Source: a virus
Length of the DNA stretch: 22,274 nucleotides
Strand: one strand, 5' to 3'
IMG/VR virus record: IMGVR_UViG_3300013014_001562
Coordinates: 1-22,274 of that record
Shown here piece by piece: positions 1,087-18,482 of the stretch. Position numbers and translations under genes: made by a program. Below the pieces are notes generated by a model. That model worked only from the letters and a program-made list of their open reading frames with translations, made no database searches and had not been told where the DNA came from. The number at the start of each line of letters is the position of its first letter. The stretch's first letter is position 1.

Positions 1087-1329
1087 TTATCCATTTCGAT
1101 GGTGTCTACTCTGACGGCTTCCTTTTGCATATATGTTCAAGTATTCAATACCTACTTTACCTTCTTCAATTTCTTCCAAAGCCCGTAGAATATTGCTTCT
1201 GGCATCAGTATGTTTTTCCTTTTTGAGTTCCCGTGCTCTCGCAGTAGCAACCAAAACCATATCATACCGATTACCAATTTTAAGTGCAGCATCTTCTGAT
1301 GTATATCTGCCTCGATCAAGATCTTTCAT
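1087..1329 (-). CDS. RNA polymerase omega subunit (RpoZ)-like protein
   Basis: An 80-residue protein that reads along its whole length like the bacterial RNA polymerase omega subunit, the small factor that clamps the beta-prime C-terminus during assembly. Residues 10-35 (SEDAALKIGNRYDMVLVATARAREL) carry the family hallmark of Asp-Ala, a KIGNRYD turn and the VLVA..RAR helix. Residues 47-60 (ILRALEEIEEGKVG) match the second conserved helix (ALREIEEG in bacteria). Bacterial omega is usually 70-95 residues, so this is full length. The basic tail (SRQSRHHRNG) is specific to this copy. It lies just downstream of a CAU tRNA gene, between it and the winged-helix gene. By inference it could replace host omega and bias host polymerase towards phage promoters. 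Identification by family pattern is strong; the effect is untested. Confidence 0.85.
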   Translation of the reverse strand: MKDLDRGRYTSEDAALKIGNRYDMVLVATARARELKKEKHTDARSNILRALEEIEEGKVGIEYLNIYAKGSRQSRHHRNG

Positions 1330-1342
1330 ATTACCCTTTATA

Positions 1343-1419
1343 TGGTACGCCGAGTAGGGCTCGAACCTACGACCAAAGGATTATGAGTCCTCTGCTCTGA
1401 CCAACTGAGCTATCAGCGC
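1343..1419 (-). tRNA. tRNA with CAU anticodon (Ile2 or elongator Met)
   Basis: A complete cloverleaf with encoded CCA. The acceptor pairs GCGCTGA with TCGGCGT (G:U pairs tolerated), the anticodon loop is CTCATAA (anticodon CAU), and the T-arm is GTAGG TTCGAGC CCTAC. The bases after the anticodon stem (TTTGGTCG) resemble tRNA-Ile2, whose CAU is modified to lysidine to read AUA, an AT-rich codon a phage would want. Elongator Met cannot be excluded from sequence alone. Confidence 0.9.
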
Positions 1420-2186: not shown

Positions 2187-2477
2187 CTATTCATCCAAAA
2201 CATGATCGGCTGCCCGAGCAACTTTGTTTATAAAATTTTCTTCATATTGTTTTTTTGACTGTTCCATATCAATGGAAATGGTACTTGAATCTTTTATTGC
2301 TTTATAAACAGGATGCATTATCTTTTGTGCCATTCGCTTTGCCATTTCTTCCATAACCTTATATGGTTTCTCACCTAATGCAATTTGTTGTAGAGCAAAT
2401 CCATATTCATATTTACGGACTCGCTCTACCCATTCCCCGAAAGTTTCATCAGGTTTTATTCTGATTACGTTGGACAT
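2187..2477 (-). CDS. Conserved-type phage protein with a HemA-like C-terminal motif
   Basis: A 96-residue hypothetical protein, predicted all-helical and cytosolic. Residues 39-62 (KVMEEMAKRMAQKIMHP, then VYKAI) loosely resemble the dimerisation helix of glutamyl-tRNA reductase (pattern LxRLxNKLLHxP). No catalytic or NAD(P)-binding domain of that enzyme is present, so an enzymatic function should not be assumed. The start at 2477 overlaps the end of the phosphoesterase gene by 13 nt, so the two are probably co-expressed. Function is unknown. Confidence 0.75.
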   Translation of the reverse strand: MSNVIRIKPDETFGEWVERVRKYEYGFALQQIALGEKPYKVMEEMAKRMAQKIMHPVYKAIKDSSTISIDMEQSKKQYEENFINKVARAADHVLDE

Positions 2478-3046
2478 TCTGTTGAGCCATTGCCATTCTT
2501 AAAACCAACTGTTCCACCTTCTTCTTTAATTCGTTTGATAACATCCTCAAAAAGAATAGGAGCAAAATCAGTTTGTTCTACGCACACGCAATGGTATCTG
2601 GGATCAATTTCATATTTACCCCAGGTCTCTGCCATCACACGATTCGCATGAAGGTGACCGTGAATGTTAGTTCCAAATCTAGCTAGACTTTCAGTATGGA
2701 TTGGAATATGAGAAAGAATCATTCCATTCATTACATGATATGCACGCAGTTCCCTGAAATGCTCTCTATATTCTTCGTCTCTAAAGATATCGTGATTACC
2801 CCTAATAAGAACTTTATCTCCGTTCAAACGCCACAATGTCTTTAGCGCCTTACGATTAATAACCACATCTCCGAGATGATAAACTTTATCATTTGGTCTG
2901 ACTGTGTCGTTCCAACGACGGATCATTTCTTCATCCATCTCATCTGGATTATCCCAGGGACGAAGTTTGGTTCCATCTGATCTTAGGAAACGACATACTC
3001 CAGCATGGCCGAAGTGTGTATCGCTAACTAGAAAAATTGCTGGCAT
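2465..3046 (-). CDS. Calcineurin-like metallophosphoesterase
   Basis: A 193-residue protein with the full motif set of the calcineurin-like metallophosphoesterase superfamily: DTHFGH at residues 8-13, GDV at about 59-61, GNHD at about 83-86, H-x-PIH at about 113-117 and GHLH at about 130-133. These residues hold a dinuclear metal centre. The superfamily includes phosphodiesterases, phosphatases and nucleases, and the substrate cannot be told from sequence. The size and simple architecture match small phage phosphoesterases. It is followed by an overlapping small helical protein. Fold assignment is very secure; the reaction is only known as phosphoester hydrolysis. Confidence 0.93.
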   Translation of the reverse strand: MPAIFLVSDTHFGHAGVCRFLRSDGTKLRPWDNPDEMDEEMIRRWNDTVRPNDKVYHLGDVVINRKALKTLWRLNGDKVLIRGNHDIFRDEEYREHFRELRAYHVMNGMILSHIPIHTESLARFGTNIHGHLHANRVMAETWGKYEIDPRYHCVCVEQTDFAPILFEDVIKRIKEEGGTVGFKNGNGSTECPT

Positions 3047-3985: not shown

Positions 3986-4561
3986 ATGGATCCATACCTT
4001 GAATTAGAAGTTTCTGTCGACGCAACCGACGAAGAAATAAAATTTCAGTATAGAGCTATGGCTATGATCCATCACCCGGACAAGGGTGGAGATGAGGAAA
4101 AATTTAAACGCATAAAAGAAGCGTATGAGATTTTATCCGATCCAATACGTCGTAAAGCATATGAGTTATCTGGTAATGCTGAAACTAATCTGCAAATTAG
4201 AAATGCGGCACTAGATCATATTGCTCAAATGATGGGGCAGATTGTCCCTCAGTTTAATTCTGAAGCTGACGATTTATTTGCCATAATGAGACAGGAAGTA
4301 ATTAACATACGACAGAGTATGCTTGAAAATACAAATACGTGTGTTGGATATATGGCAAATCTACAAAAGGTTATGATTAGAATAAATGCTAAGCATGATA
4401 AACAAAACATCATGATAGATATACTACAAAAACAAATAGATTTTAGAAATCGAGAACACGAAGATTTTGCGCAACGTATTAAAATTTGTGATCTTGAAAT
4501 GGAAATTCTCAAAGATTATGAATACGGTTTAATAGAACGTATTCAATTGCCTGAGAATTAA
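3986..4561 (+). CDS. J-domain (DnaJ-like) co-chaperone
   Basis: A 191-residue protein with an N-terminal J-domain (about residues 1-60): DPYLELEVSVDATDEEIKFQYRA as helices I-II, the invariant HPD tripeptide in MIHHPDKGGDEEKF, then FKRIKEAYEILSDPIRRKAYE. HPD is what stimulates the ATPase of Hsp70/DnaK. The remainder (about 70-191) is helical and probably coiled-coil, with no Gly/Phe region, zinc finger or DnaJ C-terminal domain, so it is a minimal J-protein with a phage-specific effector part. It is an isolated plus-strand gene. No clear Shine-Dalgarno precedes the ATG, but the domain starts exactly here. It stops one base short of the 3' end of a convergent tRNA gene. Recruitment of host DnaK is inference. 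Confidence 0.92.
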   Translation: MDPYLELEVSVDATDEEIKFQYRAMAMIHHPDKGGDEEKFKRIKEAYEILSDPIRRKAYELSGNAETNLQIRNAALDHIAQMMGQIVPQFNSEADDLFAIMRQEVINIRQSMLENTNTCVGYMANLQKVMIRINAKHDKQNIMIDILQKQIDFRNREHEDFAQRIKICDLEMEILKDYEYGLIERIQLPEN

Positions 4562-4639: not shown

Positions 4640-5233
4640 TTAAGACATAAAAATATTATCATATGATAACCAACCGGTGGTAATCATCTTTTGATCTTTA
4701 GTTGCAGGTATACCTTTGTGCATATGAGTCCAATATGCTGGCCATATTAATGTTAGTCCTTTTTCAGGTTTGACTTTAATATCCTGTGAAGAGAAATACG
4801 TTTCTCCGCCTTCTTCCACATCATTTAAATATGTCATAAACACAAGTGTGCGCCATGCTGTGTTATCAGATGATCCAAAATTTTCGCAATGCAGTTCGCT
4901 ATAATAATTGCCAGGTTCATAGCATTGAACATTATAAGGTTCATGCAATCCCCATTTAGGATTACTAAATGTAAGTCCCTCCTGAGGTATACAGTCTGGG
5001 TATTTAACTTTATAGTGGCTGATGCAATTACTTAGTTCTATTTCATATGCTTTTGCCACACTCTGAGAAATTACTACGGAACCTAAACTGGAGTAGCCTC
5101 TAAAGTTATTAGTACTATTGACCCATATATCTTTCTTAGAAACAAAATCTGATACAAGTTTATCCACCACATCTTTGTCTATATACCATCCCGCAATAAA
5201 ATGATTGGCTGAATTTAGACTATGTTCTTTCAT
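4640..5233 (-). CDS. 2-oxoglutarate/Fe(II)-dependent oxygenase (prolyl-4-hydroxylase type)
   Basis: A 197-residue protein of the 2OG-Fe(II) oxygenase superfamily, which couples 2-oxoglutarate decarboxylation to hydroxylation of a substrate. The double-stranded beta-helix runs from about residue 100. YSELHCENF gives His115 and Glu117, followed by VFMTYLNDVEEGGETYF, typical of prolyl-4-hydroxylase-like members. WPAYWTHMHKG carries the distal His (170 or 172), and the basic residue for 2-oxoglutarate is likely Lys182 in TKDQKMITTGW. The first metal motif is HxE rather than the usual HxD. Such oxygenases are frequent in phages of aquatic bacteria, but their substrates are mostly unknown. It lies between two tRNA genes. 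Confidence 0.88.
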   Translation of the reverse strand: MKEHSLNSANHFIAGWYIDKDVVDKLVSDFVSKKDIWVNSTNNFRGYSSLGSVVISQSVAKAYEIELSNCISHYKVKYPDCIPQEGLTFSNPKWGLHEPYNVQCYEPGNYYSELHCENFGSSDNTAWRTLVFMTYLNDVEEGGETYFSSQDIKVKPEKGLTLIWPAYWTHMHKGIPATKDQKMITTGWLSYDNIFMS

Positions 5234-5408: not shown

Positions 5409-5672
5409 TTATTCTGCTACTGCCAATACGTTATCTTCGGAGATTACTCCAAGATATGTATCACCCTCTTTGACTGTTTGTATATTTTGCCATTGTAAAT
5501 ATACAATATCACCAACCTTAACATCTTCAACTTCTGGGCCAATTGCCAATACAGTTCCAGTCTTTGCTCTTGGATCCGCTAAGGTTTTACCTACATAGAT
5601 ACCGCTTTCGGTTTCTTCTTGACGCTCTGTATCTTTGACAATTAATTTATTTCCAAGTGGTTGATATTTCAT
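5409..5672 (-). CDS. GroES-like co-chaperonin
   Basis: An 87-residue protein matching the Cpn10/GroES family over its full length. KYQPLGNKLIVKD is the N-terminal strand, ESGIYVGKTLADPRAKTG the mobile loop that docks on GroEL, GTVLAIGPEVEDVKVGDIVYLQ the core, and VISEDNVLAVAE the C-terminal strand. The dome loop is shortened. The ATG at 5672 is preferred, since the only longer start is a TTG. T4 encodes gp31, a GroES analogue needed to fold the capsid protein on host GroEL; this copy looks closer to bacterial GroES. It sits inside the tRNA cluster between tRNA-Tyr and tRNA-Arg, probably co-transcribed with them from the promoter at 6148-6175. Confidence 0.93.
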   Translation of the reverse strand: MKYQPLGNKLIVKDTERQEETESGIYVGKTLADPRAKTGTVLAIGPEVEDVKVGDIVYLQWQNIQTVKEGDTYLGVISEDNVLAVAE

Positions 5673-5691
5673 ATTTTCTTTCAAGTTAAAA

Positions 5692-17975: not shown

Positions 17976-18482
17976 TTACAGATCACGATCTTGTGGATCT
18001 TCTGTAAGTAATTGCTTTTTGCTCTTTGTTGTTTTTACTTCTGCCTCAGAATCCTTTACTTCAATTTTCTTTGGCTTCTTATGCTCAGGAATAATTTTTT
18101 CCAAGAATACTTTTAGCATACCATTCATCATGGCTGCATCTTTTACTTCGACTGTGTCTTCTAAAGCAAAAGATCTTGTGAATGCCCGATTAGCGATTCC
18201 TTTGAATAGGAATGCATCGTCGGCTTCGTCATTCTGTACGTTGCCTTTGATAATCATCTTACCATCAGCTAATTCAATTTCGATATCCTGTTTGGCAAAA
18301 CCAGCAACAGCTAATTCGATAACGTAAGTGTTATCGCCTGTTTTCTTGATATTGTATGGGGGATAGTTTGGGATTGCTTTCGTCAGATCATCGTGCATCT
18401 TTGAAAGGCGATTGAATTGATCATCAAATCCTACAAAGAATTTGTCGAAATCTTTAGGTAGGTTGTTTAAAAAATATTGCAT
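17976..18482 (-). CDS. Small heat-shock protein (Hsp20/IbpA type)
   Basis: A 168-residue ATP-independent holdase chaperone. The alpha-crystallin domain spans about residues 40-135: PPYNIKKTGDNTYVIELAVAGFAKQDIEIELADGKMIIKG, then the FLFKGIANRAFTRSFALEDTVEVKDA strands characteristic of the IbpA/IbpB subgroup, and GMLKVFLEKIIPE at the end. The C-terminal tail is long and charged (EVKDSEAEVKTTKSKKQ) and lacks an obvious IxI oligomerisation motif, which may alter assembly. The N-terminus (FLNNLPKDFDKFFVGFDDQF) is typical of the family. It is transcribed from a perfect promoter at 18592-18620 through a structured leader of about 100 nt, with AAGGAG before the ATG. Confidence 0.95.
   Translation of the reverse strand: MQYFLNNLPKDFDKFFVGFDDQFNRLSKMHDDLTKAIPNYPPYNIKKTGDNTYVIELAVAGFAKQDIEIELADGKMIIKGNVQNDEADDAFLFKGIANRAFTRSFALEDTVEVKDAAMMNGMLKVFLEKIIPEHKKPKKIEVKDSEAEVKTTKSKKQLLTEDPQDRDL

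Follow-up and report, generated by a model that had tools for sequence, protein, structure and literature searches.

A phage-encoded omega subunit of RNA polymerase in or next to tRNA arrays of T4-like and jumbo phages

Bacteriophages are known either to add factors to the RNA polymerase (RNAP) of their host or to encode a complete polymerase themselves, and the late activators of T4-type phages act on other parts of RNAP than the omega subunit. Omega is usually dispensable in bacteria, and because bacteria usually survive without it, its function has long been an open question, for which an omega carried by a phage provides a natural test. Bacterial rpoZ is commonly linked to gmk, a linkage that is not defining for omega. 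The supply of a single core RNAP subunit of the host type by a phage appears to be undescribed: no description of a phage-encoded omega was found in the literature, with most subscription papers outside the coverage and absence therefore no proof, PHROGs contains no omega family, and none of the matches examined from 50,697 annotated phage records was a genuine phage omega. For the moraphage clade of jumbo phages, a 2025 paper states that a search for homologues of RNAP genes found none (PMC12619734).

Candidates for an already known phage omega were rejected on closer inspection. The omega of “Campylobacter phage A11a” lies in E. coli gmk-rpoZ-spoT DNA with 100% identity, and its record (MG065691, approximately 119.2 kb, marked UNVERIFIED in GenBank) is a contaminated assembly with E. 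coli chromosomal DNA; the approximately 54.7-kb record MG065686 (A18a) contains the same omega match. The hits in AFYI01000003 and AGRM01000003 belong to Salmonella records, each longer than 500 kb. The verdict of contamination does not extend to the other omega matches in phage records (Acinetobacter phage MD-2021a, MT839270).

The stretch of DNA analyzed here, referred to as the window, is a virus record of 22,274 bases from a large lake virus. An open reading frame of 80 codons occupies positions 1087-1329 on the minus strand, and its product is an omega subunit (RpoZ/Rpb6-like). The initial annotation had proposed a phage-encoded omega homologue at this position, leaving the strand unstated, and had named two omega motifs, KIGNRYDMVLVATARAREL and ALEEIEEG, both of which are found in the product. 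A search with the RpoZ profile had been set beforehand as the test that could refute the proposal, and it returned a significant match: NCBIfam TIGR00690, the rpoZ equivalog, scored 35.1 bits (E-value 1e-8; cut-off 23.6), Pfam PF01192 (RNA_pol_Rpb6) scored 44 bits (2.2e-11; cut-off 26), and phmmer matched the viral protein to E. coli omega among the PDB sequences (E-value 1.4e-7). Since profile, fold, phylogeny and selection all agree, the ORF encodes a genuine omega subunit. An AAAGGG ribosome-binding sequence stands before the ATG in a 13-nt spacer (1330-1342, minus strand), and no other ATG, GTG or TTG start codon occurs upstream of codon 24. The protein begins with MKDLDRG (residues 1-7; 1309-1329, minus strand), which precedes a conserved Arg8 as judged from both sequence and structural alignments. 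The core conserved region KIGNRYDMVLVATARARELK (residues 17-36; 1222-1281, minus strand) includes N20, R21, L26, R31 and R33, and the second conserved region ALEEIEEGK (residues 50-58; 1156-1182, minus strand) includes E53, I54 and G57; together with T10, these residues reach a conservation of 90% or more among both viral and bacterial omegas. A basic C-terminal tail, NIYAKGSRQSRHHRNG (residues 65-80; 1090-1137, minus strand), is kept across the subfamily to which the window belongs.

The predicted structure points in the same direction. An AF2 model of the viral omega (pLDDT 76, pTM 0.62) contains helices at residues 12-18, 21-37, 46-55 and 62-70, and its top Foldseek matches are omega chains in the PDB (6pss_K, E-value 5e-4, probability 1.0). 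VIA-align gave Z values of at most 7.9, a moderate level for a helical protein this small, against omega chains that span several phyla. The predicted fold thus matches that of E. coli omega. In the structural alignment, model residues 5-8 fall on E. coli omega residues 2-3, and the first residues of the model project past Ala2 of the E. coli protein.

The carrier had been described in the initial annotation as a T4-like phage, which is borne out by the gp43, gp41, UvsX, gp44 and gp45 homologues encoded in the window. Furthermore, a 222-kb contig (G001, locus L003) is colinear with the window over its positions 27-51 kb; it carries the gp23 capsid protein, the late coactivator gp33 and the late sigma factor gp55 (7.8e-23), and no RNAP beta subunit was found in it. 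From this relative we infer that the phage of the window is T4-like and relies on the RNAP of its host. The coactivator gp33 was also found in a 190-kb relative. AsiA and MotA gave no phmmer match in the 222-kb relative, single-sequence searches of this kind being insensitive, and the T4-type late promoter TATAAATA showed no excess over chance and did not occur by the omega gene. With the viral profile, no omega was found in T4 itself or in the tRNA-rich jumbo phage XacN1.

A permuted tmRNA is present in the 222-kb relative, in two further subfamily members and in two jumbo contigs (L169:18879-19244 for the 222-kb relative, and L009:3721-4091, L021:4089-4487, L036:11677-12021 and L047:9524-9942). 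These tmRNAs match the betaproteobacterial Rfam model (beta_tmRNA, RF01850) at 102-134 bits, with a gathering score of 84, as well as the model for permuted tmRNA (tmRNA_permuted, RF04321), and they encode the tags ANDEQFALAA, ANDEMFALAA or ANDSQFALAA. The carriers of tmRNA are in this case T4-like and jumbo phages, which gives a clue to the host. Because the tmRNAs of the relatives are of the betaproteobacterial class and the omega itself resembles omegas of that type, the phage probably infects a freshwater betaproteobacterium.

The viral omega is tied to phage tRNA arrays, its gene lying within or next to large ones. In the window, a tRNA-Met (CAU anticodon; 1343-1419, minus strand) ends 13 nt upstream of the omega start codon, an adjacency also seen in relatives, and this gene is the first in a series of 10 tRNA genes detected by ARAGORN between 1343 and 6537. 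The 222-kb relative has its 25 tRNA genes confined to 5.8 kb (28.0-33.8 kb), with the omega gene, at 27,762-28,004, again 13 nt off the edge. A tRNA gene occurs within 5 kb of 40 of the 51 distinct viral omegas, and a co-oriented one, with Met, Gly, Thr, Ser and Ala as the species involved, within 70 nt upstream of 22 of them. The tendency extends to a jumbo contig of 321 kb, where 48 of the 50 tRNA and tmRNA genes lie together with omega at 50-80 kb and only 1.6% of 10-kb intervals match the omega site in tRNA richness. Other very dense arrays around viral omegas hold 46 tRNA genes in 11 kb (L013:634-8324) and 37 (L012:663-13318). The gmk linkage is absent from the window, where omega is flanked by the tRNA-Met and phage genes.

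Several other genes near omega deserve mention. Directly downstream lies a gene for a small winged-helix/HTH protein (740-991), 95% identical in the 222-kb relative and possibly a regulator. A rubrerythrin gene adjoins omega at 1592-2029; in the 222-kb relative, although colinear elsewhere, its closest homologue is located at 136 kb, showing that this gene has moved. Genes for a calcineurin-like phosphoesterase (2465-3046) and a 2OG-Fe(II) oxygenase (4640-5233) are found among the tRNA genes, and the window also encodes a set of chaperones consisting of a DnaJ-domain protein (3986-4561), a GroES-like Cpn10 (5409-5684) and an Hsp20 (17976-18482).

A search of IMG/VR with the single viral protein returned 19 loci, and a profile search at least 138 related loci, 80 of which were kept; they represent 51 distinct omega proteins on contigs of up to 364 kb. 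Each of the 50 contigs tested has one omega above the Pfam cut-off, and 18 of the 50 contain the gp23 capsid protein. Within the phage group of the window, omega was present in 9 of the 10 contigs with 9 kb or more of sequence downstream of gp41, the tenth ending approximately 10.7 kb downstream. Where dS was unsaturated, dN/dS in the window subfamily was about 0.03-0.12, and this omega is thus under purifying selection. When 55 viral and 42 bacterial omegas were placed in a maximum-likelihood tree, a branch with 100/100 support separated all 55 viral sequences from the bacterial ones; the tree is based on 73 columns with Pseudomonadota as the only bacteria, so that it sets the viral lineage apart from these rather than identifying its donor. 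A joint clade of viruses and betaproteobacteria was not rejected (p-AU 0.34). On the sequence evidence, the viral omegas of T4-like and jumbo myoviruses form a distinct lineage apart from the sampled Pseudomonadota omegas. Given its recurrence in large uncultivated phages and the single clade that its viral copies form in this sampling, the phage omega is a stable viral strategy and no accident.

It might still be argued that the window omega reflects a recent accidental capture of host rpoZ, or bacterial contamination, with no function for the phage. Contamination of this kind does exist, as the E. coli chromosome piece in the A11a record demonstrates. We nevertheless regard this explanation as refuted for the window, with very little probability left to it, since the neighbourhood is colinear with that of the T4-like 222-kb contig, purifying selection acts across lineages, and the 100/100 viral clade spans T4-like and jumbo phages. 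Even less credible is the idea that the protein serves as a subunit of a multisubunit RNAP encoded by the phage. Such polymerases occur in some jumbo phages (PMC7598289), but none of 27 large omega contigs, the longest 364 kb and several over 300 kb, had a match to the RNAP beta family PF00562, a search in which 14 of 14 bacterial and archaeal controls matched and which only very diverged beta-like subunits could escape; the presence of gp33 and gp55 likewise points to the use of host RNAP. This largely refutes a phage polymerase, and it follows that the partner of the viral omega must be host RNAP.

We estimate a probability of roughly 0.65 that the viral omega joins host RNAP and upholds its assembly and stability as part of a gene-expression kit of the phage. 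During infection it would bind beta-prime of the host polymerase, either replacing or supplementing host omega, and polymerase assembly and stability could in this way be upheld while host genes are shut down or degraded. Omega would then be one item in a set supplied by the phage that also comprises tRNAs, tmRNA, GroES-, Hsp20- and DnaJ-like chaperones, and gp33/gp55. It speaks against such a role that the tRNA arrays could be a tolerant insertion zone in which neighbourhood need not mean shared function, and that the benefit of a second omega is uncertain when the host copy can usually be dispensed with. The suggestion in the initial annotation that a phage omega would be a different route from the remodelling of host polymerase by T4 is not entirely accurate: gp55 and gp33 are both present in close relatives, so that omega adds to the T4 late-transcription set instead of standing in for it.

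A more specific role is suggested by the N-terminus. Site 1 for ppGpp lies at the interface between omega and beta-prime (PMC7676912), and an N-terminal MAR motif in omega predicts ppGpp binding at this site (PMC6912228). MAR begins 41 of the 42 bacterial omegas and only 12 of the 55 viral ones; in the window omega, one of the 43 viral proteins without it, the N-terminus reads MKDLDRGR and the arginine is found at position 8 with five extra residues ahead of it. Since the predictor of site 1 is missing from most viral omegas and kept in nearly all bacterial ones, shielding from ppGpp, which the initial annotation had suggested alongside displacement of host omega, is plausible: large phages might keep a virus-specific omega that enters host RNAP and, by its altered N-terminus, weakens or blocks site 1, rendering the polymerase insensitive to ppGpp there and allowing phage transcription to continue in starved or stressed cells. 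The lead of seven residues before the arginine (two in bacteria) is conserved in the relatives of the window, and its projection beyond E. coli Ala2 would fit such an effect. As a general rule, however, it is contradicted by the 12 viral omegas that retain MAR, and the conserved arginine itself is kept in 42 of the 55. Furthermore, site 2, which involves DksA, is reported to carry more weight in E. coli (PMC7700224), and a DksA/TraR-type zinc-finger protein, which would act on that site, was found in none of 28 contigs, so that co-occurrence lends the ppGpp role no support. We consider ppGpp desensitization unlikely. If true, it would mean that phage transcription is uncoupled from the stringent response of the host by replacement of a core subunit and not by an added inhibitor, and the missing MAR offers a precise and cheap test of whether viruses tune this response through omega.

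The surface of the viral protein could also act as a docking platform, its basic tail, Glu34 and Tyr63 being recognized by a phage transcription factor and marking RNAP for phage promoters. A precedent is found in Rhodobacter, where GafA binds omega directly and redirects RNAP to the promoters of a gene-transfer agent (PMC9638019). Glu34 and Tyr63, which bacterial omegas seldom or never have, are each present in all 55 viral proteins, and the C-terminal tail is net positive in all 55, with a median of +4. By analogy, docking is conceivable; we consider it improbable, as no candidate partner was identified among the phage proteins and, as mentioned above, T4-type late activators contact RNAP elsewhere. 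The basic tail had been described in the initial annotation as unlike that of hosts, which is true in comparison with gammaproteobacteria (median -4.5) and fails for betaproteobacterial-type omegas, whose tails are short and positive (median +2).

Compared with the T4 late-transcription set (gp33, gp55 and gp45) and other phage proteins that bind RNAP, the viral omega would share host RNAP as its target, and the two kinds of protein are found together, with gp33 and gp55 in close relatives and gp45 in the window. The T4 proteins are add-on factors without homology to a core subunit, and T4 itself gave no omega match. Compared with bacterial RpoZ (TIGR00690/PF01192), the core motifs, the arrangement of helices and the length of the core domain are the same and the scores exceed both cut-offs, but the viral protein is encoded by phages, forms a separate clade, has a positive C-terminal tail, and carries Ser11, Glu34 and Tyr63 in place of residues that are mostly different in bacteria. 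In the window subfamily an N-terminal extension takes the place of MAR, Arg8 corresponding to Arg3 of E. coli omega with the five extra residues located at ppGpp site 1 of the proteobacterial protein, and the viral gene adjoins tRNA arrays instead of residing in a gmk-rpoZ-spoT locus. Closest in appearance are omegas of betaproteobacterial type, assigned to this class by their sequence pattern (e.g. ...TALREIAEGKVGIEMLKKVPG; L274, L277), which are likewise short and share the loop length, the EGKVGxExLKK ending and a slightly positive tail. These differ in having PNRFQL and RARML where the viral proteins have GNRYDL and RAREL, and in starting with MAR without an extension. The best viral matches to the predicted fold, UniProt A0A6J5T227 (38% identity) and A0A6J7WH19 (28%), presumably belong to this viral family too; both carry the automatic name “DNA-directed RNA polymerase [uncultured Caudovirales phage]”, for which we found no discussion in the literature. 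Collectively, the family is known by its sequence and fold, and what is new is the carrier, the lineage, the N-terminus and the genomic setting.
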